From Tessaracoccus timonensis (GTDB lineage: Bacteria; Actinomycetota; Actinomycetes; Propionibacteriales; Propionibacteriaceae), in assembly GCF_900343145.1 (NCBI RefSeq), contig NZ_LT996886.1:1054001-1118000 (forward strand): DNA of 64,000 nt, written 5' to 3'. Under the pieces are notes generated by a model, which was given only the letters and a program-made list of their open reading frames with translations, was not told the origin of the DNA and did no database searches. The number at the start of each line of letters is the position of its first letter. The stretch's first letter is position 1. The position numbers and the translations under genes were made by a program. Below, in pieces: positions 44,903 to 59,749 of this stretch.

Positions 44903-44977
44903 AACCCGATATCCACATTCGTTTGCTCAGATCGGCGATTTCGGGCGTTTTCGGCAAACGAATGTGGATATCGGGTT
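44903..44977. repeat. Long inverted repeat C, in a divergent intergenic region
   Basis: Perfect 23-bp arms, 44903-44925 and 44955-44977 (CAAACGAATGTGGATATCGG core), around a 29-nt loop containing GGGCGTTTTC. It lies between the starts of two divergent genes, which argues against a terminator. Confidence 0.85.
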
Positions 44978-45458: not shown

Positions 45459-45520
45459 TTATCCACATAACCTGTGGATAACTAGACCTGAATCTGTGAA
45501 ATCTCGGAAAGTTTTCCACA
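45459..45520. promoter_or_regulatory. DnaA-box cluster upstream of the Tad pilus genes
   Basis: Perfect boxes TTATCCACA (45459-45467) and TGTGGATAA (45473-45481) face each other 5 bp apart, and TTTTCCACA (45512-45520) is a near match. The cluster lies in the promoter region of the cpaB-like gene (start 45586), about 14 kb from oriC. Confidence 0.7.
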
Positions 45521-45585
45521 GTTGTCGCAAAAACCGCTGAAGTGACCCCGTCGACCACATAGTTTTCGTCACGGAGGTGCCAGCT

Positions 45586-46224
45586 ATGGGTGCAACTGAA
45601 GCTGACGCGGGGGCAACGAAGCTCCCCCGCCCCGATGCAGTGCAAATGCGTGCACGGCGGAGCCCGAAACTGATCGCGGGTGGAGTGCTCGCCGTGGTAC
45701 TCGGTGCGCTCGGATTCGCGTACATCTACGAGTCTTCGACGAACTACGCCTCGGTGGTCGCCGTCGCCCAACCCATCGCGCGCGGTTCCGTCGTCACGCA
45801 AGAACAGTTGCGCGTCGTGCAGGTGCCGGAGGGATTCTCGACGCAAACCCTCGCCGCAGATGCGCTGGACGATCTCGTCGGGCGCACCGCGCTCACTGAT
45901 CTCCCGATGGGGTCGTTCCCGCTCGCCTCCCACGTGGGCGACAACCCGCTGCCAGGCGGCGAGGCGCTCGTCGGGCTACGGCTCACCCATGGGCAGCTCC
46001 CCACCGCTGCGTTGCCGGCGGGCACCGCGGTGGAACTCGTCGGCGTCGGAGATGCCGCAGATGCCTCGAAGGCAGTCCCGGCCGTTGTCGCAACCGCTCC
46101 GCTGCTGCTCGACGACGGCGCCTCGTTCGTGGTCGACGTGCGCGTGGCCCACGAGGAAGCCGGCGCTGTGGCCCGCTTGGCCGCACGCAATGAGTTGGCG
46201 CTGTTCGCCGTCGGGGGGCGATGA
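45586..46224 (+). CDS. SAF-domain protein, CpaB/RcpC-like pilus assembly protein
   Basis: 212 residues. ATG 45586 is placed by GGAGG (45573-45577); GTG 45577 lies within that site. One membrane helix (LIAGGVLAVVLGALGFAYIY) is followed by a SAF domain (VVAVAQPIARGSVVTQEQLR; DLVGRTALTDLPMGSFPLAS). CpaB-like proteins act in the periplasm/cell wall in Flp pilus assembly. First gene of the Tad operon. Confidence 0.8.
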   Translation: MGATEADAGATKLPRPDAVQMRARRSPKLIAGGVLAVVLGALGFAYIYESSTNYASVVAVAQPIARGSVVTQEQLRVVQVPEGFSTQTLAADALDDLVGRTALTDLPMGSFPLASHVGDNPLPGGEALVGLRLTHGQLPTAALPAGTAVELVGVGDAADASKAVPAVVATAPLLLDDGASFVVDVRVAHEEAGAVARLAARNELALFAVGGR

Positions 46225-46227
46225 GCA

Positions 46228-47022
46228 ATGGCAGTGATCGTGTTCACGTCGGGGCCGGGCTCCCCCGGAGTTACGACGACGTCCCTCGCCCTCGCGCTGG
46301 CTTGGCCCCGCGGCGTACTCCTGGCCGACTGCGACCGTGACCCAGCGCAGGCCGTGCTCGCCGGCTACCTGCGCGGCCTCGACACGGGAGGAAGAGGGTT
46401 GGCTTCGGTGGCCCAGGCACACCGTGAAAACCGGCGCGTCCACGATGAGCTGTGGATGCACACTTGCCCGCTGACTTCGGAAGATGCACCGAAAAGGCGG
46501 TTTCTCCCCGGCTTCAGCCAGCCGGCGGCGGTGCGGCTGTTCGACGGCGTCTGGGCCGGGCTCGGCGAGGCGTTCGAGGGGCTCGACGCGCTGGGCGTCG
46601 ACGTGCTCGTAGACGCGGGGCGTATCGGCGTGGGTGGGGTACCAATGGGGTTGCTGGCGGCGGCGGACCTCGTCGTCGCTATCGCGCGGAGCCATCTGCG
46701 GTCGCTCGCAGCGCTGCGACTCCACCTCCCCACTTTGCGCGACCAACTCACCTCGCTGCCAGTCGACGTGCCGCTGGGGCTGGGCATCATCGGGGCGAAT
46801 CAGCCGTACTCCACGAAGGAGATTGCGCAGCAGTTCGCCGTGCCGGCGTGGTTCGAGCTGCCTCACGATGCGCAGGCGGCGGGCGTGCTGCTCGATGCGC
46901 AGCCCGAGCCGAGGCGGTTCATGGAGCAGAGCTTCATGGGCAAGGCGCGCTCGGTGGCGAAACAGCTGGGCGAGCGGGTGCATGGCATCAAGGCGAGTAG
47001 AGAGGCGTTGATGCATGTCTGA
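46228..47022 (+). CDS. tadZ: ParA/MinD-like ATPase, CpaE/TadZ-like
   Basis: 264 residues. N terminus AVIVFTSGPGSPGVTTTSLA is a deviant Walker A (a Lys is missing: SPGVTTT instead of KGGVGKTT), as in many degenerate TadZ proteins. It continues LLADCDRDPAQAVL. TadZ proteins position the Flp secretion machine at the cell pole. It is four bases downstream of the CpaB-like gene and overlaps tadA. Confidence 0.78.
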   Translation: MAVIVFTSGPGSPGVTTTSLALALAWPRGVLLADCDRDPAQAVLAGYLRGLDTGGRGLASVAQAHRENRRVHDELWMHTCPLTSEDAPKRRFLPGFSQPAAVRLFDGVWAGLGEAFEGLDALGVDVLVDAGRIGVGGVPMGLLAAADLVVAIARSHLRSLAALRLHLPTLRDQLTSLPVDVPLGLGIIGANQPYSTKEIAQQFAVPAWFELPHDAQAAGVLLDAQPEPRRFMEQSFMGKARSVAKQLGERVHGIKASREALMHV

Positions 47023-48427
47023 CTTGGCAAGCAGCCTCGGCCTCCTCGGCCCGGCTCCTGAGATGCTTCGCGACGGCGACGTCACCATCGCGGAGCCCCC
47101 TCGGCGCGCCGAGCTGACGGAGGCTGAGCTCGATTGGCCCCTCGTCGTGCAGCTGCGTCGCGAGGCTGCCGAGCAGGTATCGGCGGCCGACACACAATGG
47201 CACGACGAGCGCGGGAGCGCCATGCCCGACGAGGACCGCCGCGTGCGCGCCCGCGCCATCATTCGAGGCGTGGTGCATGCCACCGCGCAGCGGTTGAGCG
47301 ACGACGGTGAGGCGCTGTGGAGCCTCGCGCTCGAAAACCGGTATGCCGACGCGGTGGAGTCGGCGATGTTCGGCTACGGACGCCTGCAGCCGCTGTTCGA
47401 GATTCCCGACGCCGAGAACATCGAGATTCACGGCCACGACTGCGTCATGGTGCAGTACGGCGACGGTCACCGCGTCGAGCATCCACCCGTCGCGGATTCC
47501 GACGACGAGCTCGTCGAGGCCATCCGCTTCCTCGGTGAGACGGCCAAGCCACCTCGGCCGTTCGACGATGCCCACCCGACGATGACCCTCGCGCTCGGCT
47601 CGAAGTTCCGGCTCCACGCCATTGGGTTTGGGTTGTCGTACCGCCCGTCCGTGGTGATCCGGCAGCACCGTTTGACGGACGTCACGCTCGACGACCTCGC
47701 CCAAACGGGCATGTTCCCCCGCGAGCTTGGGGGGTTGCTGCGTGCGGCGGTGCTTGGCCGGAAGTCCATCGTGATCGCTGGTGACCAGGGCGCCGGTAAA
47801 ACCACCTTGCTGCGCGCGCTCATCGACGCGATCCCCGCCAGCGAGCGGTTCGGCACCCTGGAAACCGACTATGAGCTGCTCACCCACCTGCACGAGCATC
47901 GTCGCAACATGCTGGCCTTGCAGGCCCGCATCGGGCTGGGTGAATCGGCCGCTGGCAAGGTTGTTGGCGCGTACACCGTCGCAGATCTCATCCCGGAGGC
48001 ACTGCGCCAGAACCTGTCACGCCTCGTGGTCGGTGAGGTGCGCGGTGAAGAGGCCGGGGCGATGTTCGAGGCGATGCAGTCGGGTGCGGGTTCGCTGTCG
48101 ACGACGCACTCGCACTCGGCATCATCGACGATCGACCGCCTCGCCTCCCGCGTCGCGCAGGGCGGCGTGTTGGGCGTCGACGAAGCGATGCGTCAGATCG
48201 CGCACCACATCGGGTTGATCGTGCACGTGGTGCTCCGCGACGACACGTGGCGCGGGGGCACGCGCCGGCGTTTCGTAAGCGAGGTGCGGCAGCTGACGGG
48301 CTCGATGGAGGCCGGGCGCCCCACCACGCACCTGTTATATAAGGCGTCAGCCGACGGCTCCCCCGAACTGTTCGACCCCAGCGCGGAATTGCTCACCGAG
48401 CTGGCCGAATTCTGGGAGCGACGATGA
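47015..48427 (+). CDS. tadA: Tad pilus secretion ATPase TadA/CpaF
   Basis: 470 residues. Walker A GDQGAGKTTLLRAL (about 256-269), Walker B region RLVVGEVRGEEAGAMFEAMQ (about 337-356), and the His-box THSHSAS. This hexameric ATPase of the type II/IV secretion superfamily drives Flp pilin assembly. Its start overlaps tadZ and its end overlaps tadB by four bases. Confidence 0.93.
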   Translation: MSDLASSLGLLGPAPEMLRDGDVTIAEPPRRAELTEAELDWPLVVQLRREAAEQVSAADTQWHDERGSAMPDEDRRVRARAIIRGVVHATAQRLSDDGEALWSLALENRYADAVESAMFGYGRLQPLFEIPDAENIEIHGHDCVMVQYGDGHRVEHPPVADSDDELVEAIRFLGETAKPPRPFDDAHPTMTLALGSKFRLHAIGFGLSYRPSVVIRQHRLTDVTLDDLAQTGMFPRELGGLLRAAVLGRKSIVIAGDQGAGKTTLLRALIDAIPASERFGTLETDYELLTHLHEHRRNMLALQARIGLGESAAGKVVGAYTVADLIPEALRQNLSRLVVGEVRGEEAGAMFEAMQSGAGSLSTTHSHSASSTIDRLASRVAQGGVLGVDEAMRQIAHHIGLIVHVVLRDDTWRGGTRRRFVSEVRQLTGSMEAGRPTTHLLYKASADGSPELFDPSAELLTELAEFWERR

Positions 48428-49269
48428 CCCTCGCGGCCGCTGCACTGGGCGGCCTCGTCGCATTCGGCCTTGTCCTCGTCCTGTTGGGGTGGACTTCCCC
48501 ACCGCCTCCACCACAATCCACAAGCCTGTGGAAAACTCTGTGGACACGGTGGGAAAGTATCCCTCTTCGGCGCCGTTCGTGGGTGGTCGGGTCGGTCGTC
48601 GCGGGGTTCGCCGTGGCGGCGATCACTCAGTTTCTGCCGGCCATCGTGCTCATACCCGCGCTCGTCATCGCGGTGCCGTGGCTATTGGGCGAACCGCCCA
48701 CGCGTGAACTCGATCTGCTCGCCGGTTTGGATCGCTGGGTGCGGCTGCTCTCCACCTCCATCGGCACCGGCAAGTCCATCCGCGATGCCATCTTCGCCAC
48801 CCGCGCCCAGGCGCCCGAGGCGATCCGCGACGCCGTCGACCGACTCTGCGCCCGCCTCGATCAGCGCACCACCACGAAAGACGCACTGTTGCGCTTCGCC
48901 GACGAGCTCGATTCTGCCGACGCCGACGCGGTAGCCGCCGCGCTCGCCATCGCCTCGACGCGCGGCGGGGTAGGCACGCGGGCTACGCTCATGGGCTTGT
49001 CAGACACCATTCAAGACCGCCTTCGAGCGTTGCGAGAGGTGGCGACGGAGCGCGCCAAGCCGCGCGCGGTAGTGCGACAAGTCACGACGATCACCCTCAC
49101 CGTGATCATCGGTGCGGTGGTGCTGAACGGGCCATTCTTCGAGCCGTACCTCACGCCGATCGGCGGGGTGATCGCCCTCACGCTTGCCGCCTGCTACGCG
49201 GGCTGTCTGCTCATGCTGCGCCGCATGTCGACGCCCCCACCCGCCCCACGATTCTTGCGGGGGCAATGA
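48424..49269 (+). CDS. tadB: Tad pilus inner-membrane protein TadB (type II secretion F family)
   Basis: 281 residues. Membrane helices at the N terminus and near 55-85 precede the cytoplasmic GspF-like domain (LDRWVRLLSTSIGTGKSIRD; ASTRGGVGTRATLMGLSDTI), and two helices close the C terminus. It forms the platform with TadC. Overlaps tadA and tadC by four bases each. Confidence 0.88.
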   Translation: MTLAAAALGGLVAFGLVLVLLGWTSPPPPPQSTSLWKTLWTRWESIPLRRRSWVVGSVVAGFAVAAITQFLPAIVLIPALVIAVPWLLGEPPTRELDLLAGLDRWVRLLSTSIGTGKSIRDAIFATRAQAPEAIRDAVDRLCARLDQRTTTKDALLRFADELDSADADAVAAALAIASTRGGVGTRATLMGLSDTIQDRLRALREVATERAKPRAVVRQVTTITLTVIIGAVVLNGPFFEPYLTPIGGVIALTLAACYAGCLLMLRRMSTPPPAPRFLRGQ

Positions 49270-50120
49270 TGGGGTTCGCGATTGCCTTCGGAATGCTCGT
49301 TGGCTTGGGTGTTTGCGTGATTGTGGCGGGGGCCGTGCCGGCACCGGTTCGGCTCGGCGACGCCCTTGCCGTGCTCGACCGCCGCCCCTCGCAACCGGCC
49401 GCAGGTGCGTCGTCGACGACGAATTCGAGGCGTTGGCGTCTGCCGCTCACGCAGGAACAGCAGCGCTTGCTGGCCATGCAGGACCGCGACGCCGCCGATT
49501 TCTTCACCGAAAAACTCATCCTCGGTGTGGCCGGGCTACTACTGCCTGGGCTGTGGGTGGCGCTGCAGTTTTTGATGGGCAACTCCCCCACGCTGCTTCC
49601 GCTGTTCATCGCTCCGCTGGGGGCGCTCGTCGGATATTTGGTGCCTGACTTGCGCCTTCGACGCGGTCAGCGTCAGCAACAGCGGGCGATGCACGACGCA
49701 CTCCACACTTTCTTTGATCTCGTCGCGCTCGAGCGCCTCGCCAACGCTTCGGCCACCCAGGCAACGCTGTCAGCCGCGGAAATCTCGGACGCCCCGCTGT
49801 TTCGTCGCATCACTTCCGGCCTCCAGCGGGCCCGCATGGAGCAGGTGCCGCCGTGGGACGAGCTGCGTTCGGTGGCCGATGAGTGGCGCGTGCCGGAGCT
49901 CGCCGACTTCGCCGACGTCATGCAGCTCGAAGAGCAGGGCGCGGGCCTGGCCGAGGTGCTCCAGGCCCGCGTGAAGGAGCTGCGCGACGCGCACCTCACC
50001 CAGGTCAAGATCGAGGCCAACGTCGCTAGCGAGCGAATGACCTTGTGGATGACCATTCCAGCCATGTTGTTGGGGTTGGCGTTCCTCGCGCCGGCCCTGC
50101 TGAGGATCACAGGGACGTGA
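49266..50120 (+). CDS. tadC: Tad pilus inner-membrane protein TadC (type II secretion F family)
   Basis: 284 residues. N-terminal helix, a central helix pair (LLLPGLWVALQFLMG, LFIAPLGALVGYLVPDLRLR), then the GspF-like domain (HDALHTFFDLVALERLANAS; ADFADVMQLEEQGAGLAEVL) and a C-terminal helix. Partner of TadB. The gap after it carries a DnaA-box cluster, which separates it from the pilin gene. Confidence 0.88.
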   Translation: MMGFAIAFGMLVGLGVCVIVAGAVPAPVRLGDALAVLDRRPSQPAAGASSTTNSRRWRLPLTQEQQRLLAMQDRDAADFFTEKLILGVAGLLLPGLWVALQFLMGNSPTLLPLFIAPLGALVGYLVPDLRLRRGQRQQQRAMHDALHTFFDLVALERLANASATQATLSAAEISDAPLFRRITSGLQRARMEQVPPWDELRSVADEWRVPELADFADVMQLEEQGAGLAEVLQARVKELRDAHLTQVKIEANVASERMTLWMTIPAMLLGLAFLAPALLRITGT

Positions 50121-50128
50121 TCGCCCCT

Positions 50129-50156
50129 TGTGGATAACTTTCCACAGTTATCCACA
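50129..50156. promoter_or_regulatory. Second DnaA-box cluster, upstream of the pilin gene
   Basis: TGTGGATAA (50129-50137), CTTTCCACA (50138-50146) and TTATCCACA (50148-50156) are packed end to end, 62 bp before the Flp-like pilin start. Two are perfect DnaA boxes in opposite orientation. Confidence 0.7.
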
Positions 50157-50218
50157 GCATTGAGGAAATGTGGGAATCACCCACACCGAACTGCCACAGT
50201 GAAGATCAGGAGAACACC

Positions 50219-50392
50219 ATGAAAGCCATTCACACACTCATCGGCCTCACCGTGCAGGCCCGCACGCCCCGCGACGAGCGCGGCCTCTCACAGTCGACGG
50301 AGAACGCCATCCTGCTCGCCGGTGCGGCGGCCATCGCGCTCATCATCATCACCGTCATTACCGAATACGTCCGCAACAACCTCCCCAGCTAA
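50219..50392 (+). CDS. Flp-like pilin subunit
   Basis: 57 residues from ATG 50219, placed by AGATCAGGAG. A short basic leader ends in DERG, followed by LSQSTENAILLAGAAAIALI and a 20-residue hydrophobic helix, then VRNNLPS. Size and layout match Flp pilins, cut by a prepilin peptidase after the Gly. Position of the Glu is +6, not the usual +5. No prepilin peptidase gene is in the window. Confidence 0.75.
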   Translation: MKAIHTLIGLTVQARTPRDERGLSQSTENAILLAGAAAIALIIITVITEYVRNNLPS

Positions 50393-50403: not shown

Positions 50404-53025
50404 ATGAAGTGGCTGCGCGCCGCCGCATCACTCGCCCTCCTGGTGGGCGTGCTCGTCGGCGTGCCTATGCTCCTCTTCGCGAGCACCAACCCCGCGGGGT
50501 TGCTGGACGTGGATTGGGCTCGCGCGCTGATGCGCCCCGACGACGGCCGCATCGTGCTCGAACTCCTCGGGCTCATCGGCTGGCTCGCGTGGGCAGTGTT
50601 GGCGGCGACGATCATCGTCGAGGTGGTCGCCGTCGCCACCAGTCGCCGCATCGACGTACGGCTGCCCGGCACGCAGTGGTTCCGGCCGGCTATCACCGCG
50701 CTGGTCGCCGCCGTGATGCTGGCGCCGGTGGGTACCGCATCGGCAGCCCCACCCGCTGCCCCGGAACCACACGCGACGGCACACGTCCCGCAAGGCGATC
50801 CGTCGTCGTCGGCAGCAGCTGCCGACAGCACCTCGACCGACGATGCGCCACCCGCCGCCACGACGCGCACTGGGCGCGAGTATGTGGTGCAACCTGGCGA
50901 CGAGCTGTGGACGCTCGCCAAGCAGCACCTCGGTTCCGGGGAACGCTGGCGCGACATCCTCGCGGTGAACCCGGGGCTCACCGCCGACGCACGTCTCCAG
51001 CCCGGAACCACACTGCAGCTGCCACCCGACGTGCAGGTGGCGCGCGGCGATTCGCTGTGGAAGCTCGCCGCCAGGCATCTGGGAGACGGCGAACGGTGGC
51101 CGGAAATCCACGAGCTCAACGCCGATCTCATTCTTAACCCTGACGAGATCGACGTCGGATGGCGCTTGCTGCTCCCCAGCACCACACCCGCTGCGGAAGC
51201 TCCGGAGGAGCCGACGATTCCCGAGGCGGCGAGCGCGCACGCTGTCCCAGAGTCACCCGAGCCATCCAGCCCGGCCACGTCCGCGCTCACCTCGTCCGCA
51301 CCGCCTCCGTCGGCACCGGTTGCAACTCAGCCAGCTGCGTCAGCTCCGGCATCAGCCGCGCCCAGCTCGGAGGCGCAGCACGTCGCCGTTGCCACAGCGG
51401 ATGACGCGCCTGAGAGCTCCGACTCGGTGTCAGAACTCGACGAAGAATCGCACGGCCTGGTGGGTGCCATCGGCGGCATGTTGGCCAGCACCATCGTCGT
51501 GGGCGTCGCCGCGCGGCGTCGGCTGCAACTGGTGGGCCGGGCGCTGGGCAGGAGGCTCGTGCCGCTCAGCCCTGAGGCCACGAAGTTCTGGACGGCCCTC
51601 GCCCGTAAGGCGGAGACCTCCACCGAGGCGCCCACCGACGTCGAGCCCACGAGCGTGGTGCTCGGTTGGCGCAGCGACGAGTCGGAGGTCACCCTGGATC
51701 TGGAACAGGCCGGGGCGACGGGCCTCGTCGGGGCTGCCGAGCCACAGGCAGTCGTCGGCGCCATGGCAACGAGTTTGCTGTGCGCACCGTGGTCGAGCGA
51801 CGTCGAGGTGGTGCTCGTGGGCGCCGATCAGCCCTGGGCGAAAGCCATCGACGACCCCCGCCTGCGGGAGCTCTCCGTCGACGAGGCATGCGAGTACCTC
51901 ACGACGATGTGCGCGACGCGTCGCCTCGAACTCGGCGCACGCCTCCTCGACGATGTGCGCGCCTGCCCAGACCTCGCGCCCGCATGGCACCCGGTGGTCG
52001 CGCTGTTCGCCGAACCCGTCACCGCATCGCAAGCACACACCATCGAGGCCGCACTCGAGCTTGGCCGGACGGGCGTCTCCGCAGTGATCCCTGGTTGGCA
52101 AGGGAAGACGCAGGTGCAGTTCGACGACGACATGGCCTCGCTCGATGGTGAATGCTTCCGCCCGCAGCTGCTCACCACGCCCGCCCGTCGCGCGCTGGTG
52201 GAGCTCTTCGCCGGCACGCTCGAGGACGCCACTGAACCGGCCGGATGGTGGTCGCCCACTGCGCCACGACGCTCGTTGACCGGCCGCTTCCTCGACCCGG
52301 AGCCAGAACCGCCGCTGCCGCCCGCTCCGTCGCTCGTGCTGTTGGGCGAGCCCGCGCTGGAAGGCGCCACCGGGCAGGAACCCCGTCGAGCCCAGCAGCA
52401 GTGCATCGAGTACGCGGCATGGCTCCTGCTACACCCCGGCTCCACCGCCACCACCATGTCCCGCGCCCTGTGCGTAGCGGAAGGCACACGCCGCTCGAAC
52501 CTCTCCCGACTGCGCACCTGGCTCGGATGCGACGAGGCCGGTCACCGCTTCCTTCCCGAGGCCTACCAGGGGCGCATCTCGCTCGATGAGCGCGTCACCT
52601 CCGACTGGCACCGCGTGCGCGCACTTATCCCGGGCATTGTCAATGAGGCGTCAGACCGCGCGCTGCGCCACGCCCTCACCTTGGTGTCCGGGCCGCCGCT
52701 GGGCACCGCCGTCGCGCGGTGGCCGTGGGCACGCACCATCCATGACGACATGGTGGCGTTCCTCGTCGACGTGGCATGCGAGCTCACCGACCGCTGCCTC
52801 GCGGGCGGCTACTTCGACGAAGCACTCTGGGCACTTGAGCAGGGCCGAAGCGTCGGGCCGAACCACGACGAGCTCCGCATCCGCGCGGTGCGAGCCCGGC
52901 ACCTGATGGGCGACGCCGCCGCCACCCAAGAGGAGGTTGCCAGCCTGATCCAAACCATCCGCGACGAGAACCGCCAGATGCAGCCCGAGCACGCCGCCGA
53001 GCTCGCGCGCATCGGTGCCGTTTAG
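50404..53025 (+). CDS. Large membrane protein with LysM repeats and C-terminal BTAD-like domain
   Basis: 873 residues. Two or three membrane helices in the first 120 residues, a Pro/Ala-rich linker, then two LysM motifs (YVVQPGDELWTLAKQHLG at about 160; VARGDSLWKLAARHLGDGER at about 215), a long Ala/Pro/Ser region, another helix (GAIGGMLASTIVVGVAA) and a cytoplasmic part that ends in a BTAD-like helical repeat (DVACELTDRCLAGGYFDEAL). LysM binds peptidoglycan; BTAD occurs in SARP regulators. Such proteins accompany actinobacterial Tad loci; role unknown. Confidence 0.75.
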   Translation: MKWLRAAASLALLVGVLVGVPMLLFASTNPAGLLDVDWARALMRPDDGRIVLELLGLIGWLAWAVLAATIIVEVVAVATSRRIDVRLPGTQWFRPAITALVAAVMLAPVGTASAAPPAAPEPHATAHVPQGDPSSSAAAADSTSTDDAPPAATTRTGREYVVQPGDELWTLAKQHLGSGERWRDILAVNPGLTADARLQPGTTLQLPPDVQVARGDSLWKLAARHLGDGERWPEIHELNADLILNPDEIDVGWRLLLPSTTPAAEAPEEPTIPEAASAHAVPESPEPSSPATSALTSSAPPPSAPVATQPAASAPASAAPSSEAQHVAVATADDAPESSDSVSELDEESHGLVGAIGGMLASTIVVGVAARRRLQLVGRALGRRLVPLSPEATKFWTALARKAETSTEAPTDVEPTSVVLGWRSDESEVTLDLEQAGATGLVGAAEPQAVVGAMATSLLCAPWSSDVEVVLVGADQPWAKAIDDPRLRELSVDEACEYLTTMCATRRLELGARLLDDVRACPDLAPAWHPVVALFAEPVTASQAHTIEAALELGRTGVSAVIPGWQGKTQVQFDDDMASLDGECFRPQLLTTPARRALVELFAGTLEDATEPAGWWSPTAPRRSLTGRFLDPEPEPPLPPAPSLVLLGEPALEGATGQEPRRAQQQCIEYAAWLLLHPGSTATTMSRALCVAEGTRRSNLSRLRTWLGCDEAGHRFLPEAYQGRISLDERVTSDWHRVRALIPGIVNEASDRALRHALTLVSGPPLGTAVARWPWARTIHDDMVAFLVDVACELTDRCLAGGYFDEALWALEQGRSVGPNHDELRIRAVRARHLMGDAAATQEEVASLIQTIRDENRQMQPEHAAELARIGAV

Positions 53026-53567
53026 CCGTAGGTGTCTCTCGGGCCGCGCCCGTCGCGCACCGACCTCGGCCCGTGCTTCCAGCTGCGCTGCGGCGGGCCG
53101 ACGATATCCACCCGCTTCACCGTGCGATCACCAAGCTCACGGTTAAGCTTCGCCACCAACTGCGAGGCGGAGTACTTCATGCCGGTGGCCCAGGCCGTCG
53201 AGTCGCACTGCACCTTGAGCACACCGTCGCGGAAATCCACGGGCTGTGAGTGCTCGGCATTCGCGTCGCCGACGAGGTCAGCCCAGTTGCGCAGCACCGT
53301 CGACAGCGAGAGGCGTTTCGTCCAACCTCGTCGCTCCACCACCGTCTCGAACACGGAACCGATGAGCTGGGGGTCGCGGTCGTCGGGATGTGCGCCCGAG
53401 CGCTGCTGCTCGCCGGTGAACCGTCGGCGTTTCACCGGTTTGCGCGGCTCGGGAAGCGCCGGCGCATAGGGTTTACCCAACACGGTGGCGCGGGCGATCT
53501 GGGCGGCGAGGTCGAGCCCGGTCGGGTCGTGGGGCATGGGGTTGTCGGTTGCGGGCTCGTCGGTCAT
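53022..53567 (-). CDS. DUF721 protein (next to recF)
   Basis: 181 residues. The DUF721 core is visible (IGSVFETVVERRGWTKRLSL; WADLVGDANAEHSQPVDFRD; DSTAWATGMKYSASQLVAKL). This family is found between recF and gyrB in most actinobacteria; RNA or DNA binding has been proposed. It overlaps recF by four bases and converges with the LysM protein. Confidence 0.85.
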   Translation of the reverse strand: MTDEPATDNPMPHDPTGLDLAAQIARATVLGKPYAPALPEPRKPVKRRRFTGEQQRSGAHPDDRDPQLIGSVFETVVERRGWTKRLSLSTVLRNWADLVGDANAEHSQPVDFRDGVLKVQCDSTAWATGMKYSASQLVAKLNRELGDRTVKRVDIVGPPQRSWKHGPRSVRDGRGPRDTYG

Positions 53568-54871: not shown

Positions 54872-56032
54872 CTAGCTGGGCAGGCGCATCAGCATGATGA
54901 CGTGGCGGTAGTCGAGCAGCTGCTCACCATCCATGCTTGCCAGGCCCGTAATCAGGCAGGGCTTGCCCGGCGCGGTGAACGCGAAGTGCGCGTACGGGGC
55001 GTCGAGCGCACCCAGCGCGTCGAGCAGGTACTGCGGGTTGAAGCCCGCGGCCTCGATCGTCTGCTCATCGCCGACGATCTCCACGCCCGCGGGGATCGCT
55101 TCCGTGCCCTGCGCCTGGTCGCCGGTGGCGGCCTCGAGGGTGACGTGATCGTCGTTGATGACCATGCGCAGCGGGGTGTTGCGCTCGGCGACAAGCTTCA
55201 CGCGCTTGACCGCGCCGAGCAGCTCGTCGCGGGAGACGCGGACGTTCACGGTGCCGTCGACGTCCATCAGATGCCGCACCTTCGGGAACGACTGCGACAG
55301 CAACCGCGTCGTGGCCTCCCGCTTGCCGTAGCTGCCCTCGCCGACGAAGCCCGCCAGGCCTTCGCCTTCGGCCTCGGTGGTGGACAGCGAGATCGTGACC
55401 TCGTCGCCGCCCGTCATCGCCTTCGCCGTGTCGGAGAGCACCTTGCCCGGGATGAGCACGGCGCCCTCGGCGTCGGGCGTCGACGGGTTCCAGGTGATCT
55501 CCTTCAGCGCCATGCGGTAGCGGTCGGTGGCCAGCAGGGACAGCGTTTCGCCGTCGATTTCCACCCGCACGCCAGTGAACACCGACAGCAACTCGTCGCG
55601 CCCGGCCGCCACGAACACCTGCGCGACGGCGCGCTCGAACGTGGAAGCGTCGACGGTGCCCGCCTGCGTGGGCATGTCGGGCAGGGTGGGGTACTCGTCG
55701 ACCGGCAGTGTCTGCAACGTGAAGCGCGCCGAACCGCAGGTGAGCTCGACCTTCGAGTGGTCCGCATCCAGTTCGACTGGCTTGTTCGGCAGCGAACGCG
55801 CGATCTCAGCGAGCAGACGCCCCGAGACGAGGACAGTACCCTCGTCATGCACCTGCGCGGGCAGCGCCACCTTCGCGGAGGTGGTGGAATCAAAGCTGGA
55901 TAGCGTCACCGCATCACCGTCGGCGCTCAGCAGCATGCCTGAGAGGATCGGTGCGGTGGGACGGTTCGGCAGGCTGCGGGCAACCCAGGCAACGGCGTCG
56001 GCCAGCGCGTCGCGCTCCACACGGATTTTCAC
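54872..56032 (-). CDS. dnaN: DNA polymerase III beta subunit (sliding clamp)
   Basis: 386 residues starting MKIRVERDALADAVAWVARS, three clamp domains; the partner-binding C terminus is RHVIMLMRLPS. It is the ring clamp of the replicative polymerase. The usual dnaA-dnaN adjacency is broken by an ABC transporter pair and oriC. Confidence 0.97.
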   Translation of the reverse strand: MKIRVERDALADAVAWVARSLPNRPTAPILSGMLLSADGDAVTLSSFDSTTSAKVALPAQVHDEGTVLVSGRLLAEIARSLPNKPVELDADHSKVELTCGSARFTLQTLPVDEYPTLPDMPTQAGTVDASTFERAVAQVFVAAGRDELLSVFTGVRVEIDGETLSLLATDRYRMALKEITWNPSTPDAEGAVLIPGKVLSDTAKAMTGGDEVTISLSTTEAEGEGLAGFVGEGSYGKREATTRLLSQSFPKVRHLMDVDGTVNVRVSRDELLGAVKRVKLVAERNTPLRMVINDDHVTLEAATGDQAQGTEAIPAGVEIVGDEQTIEAAGFNPQYLLDALGALDAPYAHFAFTAPGKPCLITGLASMDGEQLLDYRHVIMLMRLPS

Positions 56033-56123: not shown

Positions 56124-58676
56124 CTACAGCGTCGCAATTGAATCCAGCACCGGCAGCTTCGCGGCGCGCCGCGCAGGCGAGATCGCGGCGAGCATGCCGA
56201 ACACCGCAGCCACCACGAGCATGAGCACAAGCTGCAGCCACGGCACATCCAGCGTGTCGATCCCCGCATCGACGTTCGCACGCTGCAGCACCACGCCAAA
56301 CAGCAGCCCGAGCAGCACACCCAACACGGATCCCATCACCGTGACGAGCACGGATTCGAGAGTGATCATGCGACGAATCTGCCGCCTCGTCACCCCCACC
56401 GCACGCAGCAGTCCGATCTCGCGCGTGCGCTCGATCACGCTCAGCGACAGCGTGTTGACAATGCCGAGTACCGAAATCACCAACGCCAGCCCGAGCAGCC
56501 CGTAGAGCAACCCGACCACCTGCTGGAACTGATCGACGCGATCCTGCACATACTCGTGCACGTCCGACACCGCGACCGTCTTCATCTCGTTCGTCGCGCT
56601 CAGCAATCCCTGACGAACCTGCTCGGCGTCGGCGCCGTCAGCGGTGAACACGACGAGCTTCCGAACCACTCGCGAGTCGGCGATCTTATCCAGCGTCGCC
56701 TTGTTGACGATGACCTGCGCCGGAGCATCGTCATCGGCGATACCCGTCACCAGCAACTGCTGCGTGCCCACCGAGCCCGCGAGCTCGAACGTCATGCCGA
56801 GCGACAGCTGCTGATCGCTGGCGAACTTCGCGGAAATCACCGCGGAATCTGGTTCGTCGGTCATGGTGCCCGCGACGATCTCCGTCGCGGTGCCTTCGTG
56901 GAGGCCCCGCGGCGTGGTGCCGGCCATCGTGACCGGTTTCTGCTCACCGGGGAGCTGCGCCTGCGCTGGCCACAGCGTCGCAACCCAATCGACACCATCG
57001 ACGCCCTCCACCTGCTCGGCCAGTTTGCCGTCGAAGGGAGTCATGGTGAGGGGCGCGACGACGAAGTCACCGCGCTGATCTGCCGACAACTGAGTCTTGA
57101 GCGACGTGCTGATGCTCGCTGCAAGCACCGCGACCGTCGTGACGAGGGCCAACCCGATCGTGAGCGTGGCCGCCGTGGCCGCGGTGCGGCCGGGCTGCCG
57201 CGTGGAGTTGCGCCCAGCGAGCGTGCCGACGGTGCCGAATACGCGTCTAAACACCCAACTCGCGCACGCGATGACAGGCGCGCCGAGCCACGGCATGGCA
57301 AGCACGGCGCCGACGAGCATCGTCGCGCATCCGATACCGATCCACCACAGTGGGCCCGGCACATCGATCCACAACCCACACACAATGAGCGCGATGGCGA
57401 TCTCCACCATCACGACTCCGACCAGGGCGAGCGCACCGCCGTCGGGTTTCGAGCTCGAGTGGCTGGCCTCGGCGAGCGCTTCGACGGGGCGGGTGCGCGA
57501 CGCCCGAACCGCCGGCACCAACGCCGCGATGGCCGTAATCACGATGCCGACGGCGTACGACGCGACGATCGACTGCCACGTGAGCTGCGGTTGGGCCGCG
57601 CCCAGATCGACGCCGGCTGAGCCCATGAGCGCCATGAGGCCCCACACCAGCAGGTACCCAACGCCGATGCCCAGCGTCGCGCCAATCACACCCATGACGA
57701 TGGCTTCGAGCAGCACTGACGTGCGCACCTGCGCCCTCGTGGCGCCGATGGCGCGCAGCACCGCGAGCTCGCGGGAGCGTTGGGCGACGAGGATCGAGAA
57801 CGTGTTGACGATGAGCATGGTGGCGACGAGCAACGCGATGGCCGCGAAGATCAGCAGCACCGTGTTGACAAAGCCCATGCCAGCACCCAGCGCGTCGCGG
57901 ATCTCGTCGGCGAGCTTCGCGCCCGTCTCGGCCTTCCAGCCCTCGGGAAGTACCTCGGATACCGCCTTGGCTACGTCATTCGCATCCTTGGACTGGTCGA
58001 TGCTGACCCACACCGCCTGGTAGACGTCCTTGCCCCCTACAAAGAGCTGCTGCGCCTCGTCGAGCGTGAAGAACAGATACGCCGCGCCCGCCGTCGAGCC
58101 GGAGCCGTATGTGCCGGTGCCGACGAGCGTGAATTCCTGCACTCCGTCGAAGGGGGTGGCGACGCGGACCGTATCCCCAATGCTGCGCCCGGCGCGTTCG
58201 GCGGTGCCCGGATCGATGACCACTTCGTTGTTGGTCTTCGGAGCGCGCCCGTCGATGATACGCGCGCTCTGTATACCGCCGACGGCGGGGGTGTCGTGCC
58301 AGTTGGCTCCGATGCCTGGTGCTCCGGGGATGCCGACGACGCGGTCATTCGCGTCGAGTACGAATACCTGAGCGTTGAGCACCGAACCGACCGCCTTGCT
58401 CACACCGTCGACGGCCTGGATCTTCTCAATGTCGGCGGGCGTCAGGGCCCGGGTGGGCTGCGCACCGTCAGCAGGAGAAGAATCGGCGCCGAGGTTCTCG
58501 TCGCTCACGTTGACGTCCGCCACTGTGGACTGGACGATCTCGTCGAATCCACGTGACAGCAGGTTGGTGAACATCAACGAGCCGGCGATGAATGCGATGC
58601 CGAGCATGATCGACAGTGCGCTCAGCACCAGGCGGAATTTGCGTGCGAGCAGCGACTTGAATGTGGCCTTCCACAT
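56124..58676 (-). CDS. ABC transporter permease, FtsX/MacB type
   Basis: 850 residues. N-terminal membrane helix, large extracellular MacB-PCD domain, a FtsX domain with three helices (residues about 260-390), a middle pair of helices, a second extracellular part and a second FtsX domain at the C terminus. This is the two-FtsX layout of MacB-like systems that work as mechanotransmitters or exporters of peptides and lipoproteins. It lies six bases downstream of its ATPase. Confidence 0.9.
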   Translation of the reverse strand: MWKATFKSLLARKFRLVLSALSIMLGIAFIAGSLMFTNLLSRGFDEIVQSTVADVNVSDENLGADSSPADGAQPTRALTPADIEKIQAVDGVSKAVGSVLNAQVFVLDANDRVVGIPGAPGIGANWHDTPAVGGIQSARIIDGRAPKTNNEVVIDPGTAERAGRSIGDTVRVATPFDGVQEFTLVGTGTYGSGSTAGAAYLFFTLDEAQQLFVGGKDVYQAVWVSIDQSKDANDVAKAVSEVLPEGWKAETGAKLADEIRDALGAGMGFVNTVLLIFAAIALLVATMLIVNTFSILVAQRSRELAVLRAIGATRAQVRTSVLLEAIVMGVIGATLGIGVGYLLVWGLMALMGSAGVDLGAAQPQLTWQSIVASYAVGIVITAIAALVPAVRASRTRPVEALAEASHSSSKPDGGALALVGVVMVEIAIALIVCGLWIDVPGPLWWIGIGCATMLVGAVLAMPWLGAPVIACASWVFRRVFGTVGTLAGRNSTRQPGRTAATAATLTIGLALVTTVAVLAASISTSLKTQLSADQRGDFVVAPLTMTPFDGKLAEQVEGVDGVDWVATLWPAQAQLPGEQKPVTMAGTTPRGLHEGTATEIVAGTMTDEPDSAVISAKFASDQQLSLGMTFELAGSVGTQQLLVTGIADDDAPAQVIVNKATLDKIADSRVVRKLVVFTADGADAEQVRQGLLSATNEMKTVAVSDVHEYVQDRVDQFQQVVGLLYGLLGLALVISVLGIVNTLSLSVIERTREIGLLRAVGVTRRQIRRMITLESVLVTVMGSVLGVLLGLLFGVVLQRANVDAGIDTLDVPWLQLVLMLVVAAVFGMLAAISPARRAAKLPVLDSIATL

Positions 58677-58682
58677 GGGCGA

Positions 58683-59492
58683 TCACAACGCCCGTCGCGG
58701 CTTGGCCGACGGCTCGCTCGGCTGCGCGTCATCGTCGGCAACCACCGGATTGCCTTGCTCGTCGAGGCGTGGGTAGAGGCGTGCCATTGTTTGCAGCAGG
58801 TCGTCTTGCGTCGGGTGCTGCACCTCGTCGACGATGCGCCCGTCGGAGAGGAACACGGCGCGGTCGGCGTAGCTCGCGGCGGTGGCGTCGTGGGTGACCA
58901 TGACGACGGTTTGGCCGAAGTCGTCCACGCTGGCGCGCAGGAATGACAACACTTCTGCGGCCGCGAGGGAGTCGAGGTTGCCGGTGGGTTCGTCGCCGAA
59001 CACAATCTCGGGGCGATTCATGAGCGCTCGGGCGCACGCGACGCGCTGCTGCTGGCCGCCGGAGAGTTCCGACGGGGTGTGGCCCAGTCGGTCGCGCAGA
59101 TCGAGCATGTCGACGACCTTGTCAAACCACGCTCGATCGACCTTGCCGCCTGCGATGGAGACCGGAAGCACAATGTTTTCTTCCGCAGAGAGCGTGGGGA
59201 TGAGATTGAAGGCTTGGAAGATGAAGCCAATACGCTCGCGTCGAAGCTTCGTGAGTGTGGTGTCGTCGAGGGCTGCGACGTCGGTGTCGCCAATGAATAC
59301 CTGCCCCGAGGTGGGCGCATCGAGGGCGGCAAGCAGGTGCATCAGCGTGGATTTGCCGGAGCCCGACGGGCCCATGATCGCCGTGAACTTTCCCTGTTCG
59401 ATCGCAAAGTCGACGCCGTCCAGGGCAACCACAGTGGTGTCGCCGCTGCCGTACTGCTTGGTAAGGGACACTGCCCTGGCTGCTACCGTCAC
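58683..59492 (-). CDS. ABC transporter ATPase, MacB/LolD type
   Basis: 269 residues from GTG 59492. Walker A GPSGSGKST, signature LSGGQQQR, Walker B VFGDEPTGNLD, His switch VTHD. The DEPTGNLD box is characteristic of the MacB/LolD/FtsE branch. It begins immediately next to oriC and forms an operon with the FtsX-type permease. Confidence 0.92.
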   Translation of the reverse strand: MTVAARAVSLTKQYGSGDTTVVALDGVDFAIEQGKFTAIMGPSGSGKSTLMHLLAALDAPTSGQVFIGDTDVAALDDTTLTKLRRERIGFIFQAFNLIPTLSAEENIVLPVSIAGGKVDRAWFDKVVDMLDLRDRLGHTPSELSGGQQQRVACARALMNRPEIVFGDEPTGNLDSLAAAEVLSFLRASVDDFGQTVVMVTHDATAASYADRAVFLSDGRIVDEVQHPTQDDLLQTMARLYPRLDEQGNPVVADDDAQPSEPSAKPRRAL

Positions 59493-59557: not shown

Positions 59558-59749
59558 ATATCTACTCATAATAGTAGTAGGTGCTGTGGACACTGTGGAT
59601 AACTTCCATCCATCCTTGTCGTACTCGCAATGAAGACTGTGGATAAGTACAACCAAGATGTCGAATTACACGCTGAGGATTTGTGGACAGCCGTCGTAGA
59701 AAAGTTTTCCACAGAAGAATCCACACCCGAACAACAGCACTTATCCACA
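59558..59749. other. Chromosomal replication origin (oriC)
   Basis: Between dnaA and the ABC ATPase gene, this gap of about 320 bp has DnaA boxes TGTGGATAA at 59594-59602 and 59638-59646 and TTATCCACA at 59741-59749, plus near matches TGTGGACAC (59585), TGTGGACAG (59682) and TTTTCCACA (59705). The AT-rich stretch TATCTACTCATAATAGTAG (59559-59577) could be the unwinding element. Neighbouring dnaA and the rnpA-rpmH block support the assignment. Confidence 0.88.

Follow-up and report, generated by a model that had tools for sequence, protein, structure and literature searches.

Why do boxes of the DnaA type stand in front of the genes of a Tad pilus? The question arises from a 64,000-nucleotide stretch of the Tessaracoccus timonensis genome (NCBI RefSeq assembly GCF_900343145.1, contig NZ_LT996886.1, positions 1,054,001 to 1,118,000 of the forward strand; hereafter the window), in which an original prediction made from the letters alone placed two clusters of such boxes before a cpaB-like gene and a pilin gene and proposed that they titrate DnaA near the origin or couple pilus expression to the replication cycle. 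Here, we compared the boxes with those in the rest of the genome, in the genus and in the class Actinomycetia. The comparison indicates that they are probably transcription-factor operators, activator sites of a competence and DNA-repair regulon, and points to the pilus being part of a common DNA-uptake programme; within this reading, the chances that DnaA itself is the binder are about even.

Results

The box lies at a near-fixed place in the pilus promoters

The window contains ten nine-mers of the DnaA-box form TTWTNCACA, compared with a mean of 0.77 and a maximum of 5 in 100 dinucleotide shuffles; four of the ten form the cluster beside dnaA. Both clusters were found where they had been placed (Table 1), each in front of a gene: cluster 1 precedes the ATG of the cpaB-like gene at 45586, and cluster 2, in which CTTTCCACA sits between the two TTATCCACA boxes, precedes the ATG of the Flp-type pilin gene at 50219. 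A third cluster, additional to these two, lies within tadB. At the pilin promoter the geometry is close to rigid: TTNTCCACAG is followed by a -35-like TGnnAA and by a -10 that begins about 47-49 nt after the box.

For this locus (tad1), 20 of the 35 other genomes that matched strongly were used, and the tad genes of the relatives were located by distance from tadA and not by annotation. A strict box is present at the cpaB place in 19/20 loci and at the tadB and pilin places in 17/20 each, so that the conservation in relatives proposed as a check of the original prediction was indeed found. The three places, which cover 790 nt per locus, hold 76 boxes versus 7 elsewhere in about 10 kb over the 20 loci, a ratio that is descriptive because the places were picked after the boxes had been seen. 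A profile derived from comEA, and thus built without tad sequences, returned 30 sites in the tad1 loci versus 2.4 in shuffled sequence, and 23 versus 1.6 in the second tad locus (tad2).

The same element precedes recA, comEA and ssb in the genus

Upstream of recA, the strict form TTNTCCACA is present in 28 of 30 loci and the variants TTCTGCACAG and TTGTACACAG in the other two; within 400 nt, none of these 30 loci has a box on the other strand. The -10 begins 46-48 nt after the box in 30/30, counted with a -10 pattern to which variants were added after the sequences had been read. Of 39 genus genomes, 38 have a comEA match, and 30 of these loci were taken. Within 250 nt upstream, the best match to TTWTCCACAG reached 9-10 of 10 positions in 22/30 loci versus 0/30 on the other strand and 0.1/30 after shuffling; at a threshold of at least 8 of 10 the count was 29/30 versus 4 and 2.65. 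Whether the clear 22 or the 29 with background are taken leaves our overall assessment unaffected, because the recA, tad1 and class counts carry the argument. The best comEA boxes lie 59-90 nt before the start of the match; 20/30 are strict TTNTCCACA, the others variants such as TAATCCACA, CTATCCACA and TTTCCAACA, and TGRnRA stands at +23 from the box in most loci. For ssb, 12/30 loci have a strict box and several a weaker one; one locus (L411) reads TTCTACACAG, which is not strict.

Boxes elsewhere in the T. timonensis genome

The 2.759-Mb genome holds 66 TTWTNCACA, of which 52 are TTWTCCACA, and the surroundings of all 52 except the one at 1601977 were examined. From an alignment of sites in this genome we built the composite pattern TTWTCCACAG-N33-CTGMCANA, which gave eight exact matches and two with 1-2 mismatches, versus none for the reversed control. 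The exact matches precede a DUF559 gene, an AbiEi/DUF559 gene, the pilin gene of the window, the Ssd and pilin genes of tad2, an M23 peptidase gene, a DUF4192 gene and recA; the inexact ones precede tag and ssb. As the pattern was derived from such sites, its fair support consists of the empty reversed control and the two additional genes. With one mismatch allowed, the pattern matched in 13 of 60 genomes including this one, with 14 matches in relatives versus 3 for the reversed control; four of the 14 precede recA (G008, G035) and ssb (G029, G031).

The box stands in promoter orientation before comEA, tad1, tad2, ssb and recA; tad2 lies 0.53 Mb and comEA 1.1 Mb from oriC, the latter with TTTTCCACAG at the same distance and a diverged -10 region. 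Before yraN-comM-dprA the box is inverted. More TTWTCCACAG sites are found 58-63 nt 5' of dnaX, hflX and genes of the DUF421 and DUF559 types. Among 19 box-gene pairs listed, 12 have box start and start codon 58-63 nt apart, and in eight of these the distance is exactly 60 nt (for dnaX, at an in-frame GTG). With a -10 at 47-52 and a start codon at 60, the message would be leaderless.

Several other sites drew our attention. Six AbiEi/DUF559-type genes (L007, L023, L024, L026, L350, L357), some with Pfam matches below the cut-off, have a box 50-63 nt 5' of the start and could be part of the DNA-uptake programme. Four small lipoprotein-like genes that resemble one another (L010, L013, L014, L019) each have an inverted box, together with AGTGACCC in a leader that is conserved; the two scanned against Pfam gave no match. 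A perfect palindrome, TTATCCACA-n5-TGTGGATAA (L009:5519-5541; C1:1393518), lies 5' of a CsoR-family gene in the arrangement seen at 45459-45481 of the window, and could be a true DnaA site. A dispersed repeat, AACTGCAAAACTCGCCA, is present in L006, L010, L014, L026, L028 and L041; in five of these six loci its copies form oppositely oriented pairs separated by about 60 nt.

Spread across Actinomycetia

Of 295 genomes of the class, 290 have a comEA match, and 76 upstream regions were hand-picked to spread over families. TCCACAG was present on the gene strand in 49/76 and on the other strand in 8 (shuffle mean 2.8, maximum 8). In 30 cases a TANN[GT]T starts 47-52 nt downstream of the box, and in 27 it starts elsewhere between 10 and 89 nt; 16 of the latter fall at 75-78, as expected if a second box about 29 bp further upstream shares the same -10. 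The typical upstream text is TTGTCCACAG-N37-CCTAGCGT followed by the start codon, and some families (f32 and f34 genomes) have little or no element. Among 80 named loci, TCCACAG was found in 20/40 from Actinomycetes or unspecified Actinomycetota (three on the other strand), in 1/9 from other actinobacterial classes and in 1/31 from other phyla.

Observations that weigh against a common operator

The above comparisons support well a promoter operator of a competence and DNA-repair regulon at a near-fixed position. Several observations count against this reading. At the tad loci, the pilin-place boxes are reversed in many relatives, the cpaB spacer is unlike the pilin-type spacer, and the strict box at tad2 is present in just 11/20 loci in the Ssd interval and 3/20 in the pilin interval. 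At the other genes, the comEA of T. timonensis itself has no match to the composite pattern within two mismatches, 18/30 ssb loci lack a strict box and at least 10 have nothing recognisable, and TCCACAG is missing from 27/76 class comEA loci. Furthermore, dnaX, hflX and the DUF421 gene carry the box yet are non-competence genes, and several boxes in this genome are apparently intragenic (e.g. L016, L022, L355) or precede unrelated genes.

Which protein reads the box

The main rival to DnaA as the binder is a dedicated competence or DNA-repair regulator that reads TTNTCCACAG, with the likeness to a DnaA box being convergent; we consider this rather unlikely. The base at position 3 bears on the question. 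In strict boxes upstream of dnaA in the genus it is A, G or T in 51/51 and never C; downstream of dnaA it is C in 8/33, seven of these in G016, G027 and G035 (the region downstream of dnaA in L178 has no box). The tad1 boxes, with C in 8/76 versus 8/84 around dnaA (p = 1.0), match the base preference of DnaA, which speaks against a dedicated regulator. Position 3 is free at recA and comEA (C in 25/60 versus 8/84 around dnaA, p = 1e-5), and comEA reads TTTCCAACAG in 4/30 loci and TTTTCAACAG in one, so that DnaA need not bind there; these departures also count against the favoured reading. The free position 3, TTTCCAACAG and the second conserved element TGRnRA at +23 favour the dedicated regulator. 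The sequences are related and not independent, and both p-values are therefore optimistic. TTCTCCACAG is also found among the boxes downstream of dnaA in G016, G027 and G035; the DnaA of the genus therefore probably tolerates it, a further point against a separate protein. In our reading, the tad1 boxes resemble ordinary DnaA boxes, while the looser recA and comEA elements may be weak DnaA sites or the sites of another protein. Position 3 was also tried as a mark to separate the comEA and recA elements from DnaA boxes: the boxes downstream of dnaA spoke against this at first, and in the wider count the recA and comEA elements differ from those around dnaA and the tad1 boxes do not.

Upstream of dnaA itself, most of the 30 loci (L157-L186) have a conserved box pair, TTATCCACAG at about -136 and an inverted TTGTCCACAA at about -84, which is likely to serve autoregulation.

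DNA-damage promoters, titration and chance

Alternatively, the box might be part of a DNA-damage promoter of the PafBC type (RecA-NDp), with tad and com genes belonging to the DNA-damage genes of this clade. Such promoters follow the formula TTGTCRGTG-N8-TANNNT. We regard this explanation as improbable, despite the presence of TTGTCAGTG 20 nt after the box at recA and dnaX of T. timonensis, of TGTCAGT at ssb and hflX, and, at the corresponding position of its com promoters, of a related CGGGCGTG; in the genus, TGTCRG lies 5' of recA in 22/30 loci and the exact TTGTCRGTG in 6/30. TTGTCRGTG is absent from 30/30 comEA loci, 40/40 tad1 cpaB/pilin regions, both window promoters and 60/60 class comEA fragments; recA and dnaX of T. 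timonensis have it, with TANNNT at dnaX only. In addition, the -26 motif that PafB reads according to an excerpt of PMC11804915 is some 20 nt downstream of the box. The recA and dnaX promoters resemble the mycobacterial PafBC/RecA-NDp promoters (parts of PMC11804915 and PMC8223512) in having TTGTCAGTG at the -26 place, and differ from them by the extra upstream TTNTCCACAG, while the com and tad promoters lack TTGTCRGTG. As a PafBC-like motif is present at recA and dnaX but not at comEA and tad1, the box is an additional upstream element common to promoters of the DNA-damage and the competence type.

Titration, the first function proposed in the original prediction, would make the clusters a datA-like sink that binds DnaA and delays initiation with no part in tad transcription. 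Each cluster has 2-3 good boxes at most 10-15 kb from oriC, and titration sites near oriC are described in an excerpt of PMC12371093, which likewise concerns box clusters by the origin; here, in contrast, the position of the box follows the gene. Where dnaA and tadA are on the same contig of a fetched locus, they are about 13 kb (G016), 20 kb (G027), 66 kb (G026), 71 kb (G011), 77 kb (G025), 124 kb (G024), 143 kb (G002), 192 kb (G020), 305 kb (G015), 307 kb (G019) and 326 kb (G028) apart, and all 11 loci except G020, which reads TTGTCAACAG, retain the strict box 5' of cpaB; in G001, G003, G004 and G062, whose tad1 promoters lie outside the fetched set, the gap is about 0.9-1.2 Mb. Nearness to oriC is thus not conserved, spacing to gene starts and -10 is near-fixed instead of free, and the same element stands far from oriC at comEA, tad2 and recA. 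Because box position tracks the gene and not the origin, we rejected titration, which now appears very improbable. Chance matches or a by-product of local base composition can be dismissed almost entirely: the nine-mer is short and has intragenic copies in the genome, but the shuffled, reversed-pattern and opposite-strand controls and the conservation at tad1, recA and comEA all contradict them.

Features of the locus

The boxes, the putative promoter elements and the genes are listed in Table 1. Directly 3' of the pilin gene lies a gene for an 873-residue LysM protein (50404-53025), the end of which overlaps the convergent dciA (53022-53567, minus strand). Upstream of the tad locus, an inverted repeat at 44903-44976 with arms AACCCGATATCCACATTCGTTTG and CAAACGAATGTGGATATCGGGTT has a near-DnaA box in each arm; its core had no match among 421 loci examined. 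dnaA is usually followed by dnaN, whereas here genes for an FtsX/MacB-type permease and an ABC ATPase (56124-59492) lie between dnaA/oriC and dnaN.

Table 1. Boxes, promoter elements and genes of the tad1 locus and the dnaA region (positions in the window).
Feature	Position	Strand	Remark
DnaA-type box TTATCCACA	45459..45467	+	5' of cpaB
DnaA-type box TTATCCACA	45473..45481	-	opposite orientation, cluster 1
Near-match TTTTCCACA (as 10-mer TTTTCCACAG)	45512-45520 (45512..45521)	+	promoter-position box, 74 nt 5' of cpaB ATG
AAGTGACCCC	45540..45549	+	read by eye; also 3' of cpaB box in some relatives (G026, G031); compare AGTGACCC in leaders of L010, L013, L014 and L019
-10-like TAGTTT	45560..45565	+	putative; 48 nt from start of 45512 box
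CpaB-like gene, SAF domain	45586..46224	+	CpaB model match below its cut-off
Gene between cpaB and tadA	46228..47022	+	no family match; from gene order, probably CpaE/TadZ place
TadA/CpaF-type ATPase	47015..48427	+	Pfam T2SSE above cut-off; NCBIfam TadA model below its cut-off
TadB (T2SSF)	48424..49269	+	
Third cluster, 5' part of tadB	48514..48546		CAATCCACA (+); TTTTCCACA (-), 48527-48535; TGTCCACAG (-), 48538-48546
TadC (T2SSF)	49266..50120	+	
DnaA-type box TTATCCACA	50129..50137	-	5' of pilin gene
TTATCCACA (as 10-mer TTATCCACAG)	50148-50156 (50148..50157)	+	promoter-position box, 71 nt 5' of pilin ATG; exact composite-pattern match
-35-like TGGGAAT	50171..50177	+	23 nt from start of pilin box
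-10-like CACAGT	50195..50200	+	putative
Flp-type major pilin, 57 aa	50219..50392	+	by sequence and position; no family match
dnaN	54872-56032	-	
Likely oriC box cluster	59594..59749		three TTATCCACA and one TTTTCCACA; beside dnaA
dnaA	59811-61172	-	

Discussion

The suggestion that the boxes control pilus expression stands in a modified form: they are conserved, keep a near-fixed distance to gene starts and recur before competence and DNA-repair genes. In the mechanism that we favour, one box per promoter would lie about 50-59 nt 5' of the inferred transcript start, upstream of the -35-like TGnnAA and the -10, and the protein bound to it would most likely activate RNA polymerase. This activation would turn on comEA, tad2, recA, ssb and other DNA-processing genes along with the Tad pilus, as a competence and DNA-repair programme, in cells that we infer to be transformable. 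The extra boxes, in opposite orientation or within tadB, may increase occupancy at tad or provide a further level of control there. If the binder is DnaA, DNA uptake and repair would be tied to the state of replication.

One close counterpart is competence in Micrococcus luteus, for which excerpts of PMC4322843, PMC8467076 and PMC12849477 describe comEA/EC and both tad loci as required for transformation. T. timonensis likewise has comEA and two tad loci, a likeness at the level of genes, promoters aside; the need for both M. luteus tad loci (excerpt of PMC4322843) is counted here as functional support for a competence regulon. M. luteus is reported there to be without a ComK cascade, and its competence regulon is called currently unknown in part of a 2026 paper (PMC12849477). 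A Firmicutes competence regulon with SigX is mentioned in an excerpt of PMC8467076. The similarity to Firmicutes competence regulons lies in a gene set under one promoter signal, and box and machinery differ (Tad pili here). In Firmicutes, a common competence promoter signal covers the genes for DNA uptake and the pilus as well as ssb, recA and dprA, and ComK is a known regulator.

DnaA acts as a transcription factor at nrdAB of E. coli and sda of B. subtilis (parts of PMC8203912, PMC4447404), likewise through DnaA-type boxes in promoters of DNA metabolism; unlike in those cases, the box described here keeps a near-fixed distance over many promoters and across a class. The element was not found in the open-licence PMC literature searched, judged from titles and abstract openings. 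In the available parts of the papers, 'DnaA' is absent from PMC8467076, which deals with M. luteus com expression, and 'competence' from PMC8203912 and PMC4447404, which is weak evidence of absence.

We tentatively extend these findings to a broader proposal, which we think possible rather than probable: throughout Actinomycetia, natural competence may ancestrally be activated by DnaA, which would also take part in the DNA-repair response. It would act from TTNTCCACAG near position -55 of promoters that are often leaderless, and replication that has stalled or been initiated too often would then lead to production of the Tad pilus, ComEA, RecA and SSB. How Actinomycetota regulate competence is yet to be explained, and a promoter signal whose bases and spacing are defined would allow the regulon to be predicted from sequence and put to a direct test. 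Among the tad and comEA genes that are widespread in high-GC Gram-positive bacteria, such a signal would single out those wired for DNA uptake, and the element gives a concrete route to the unknown switch of the pilus and DNA-uptake programme. If DnaA is the binder, the state of replication would be directly coupled to horizontal gene transfer.

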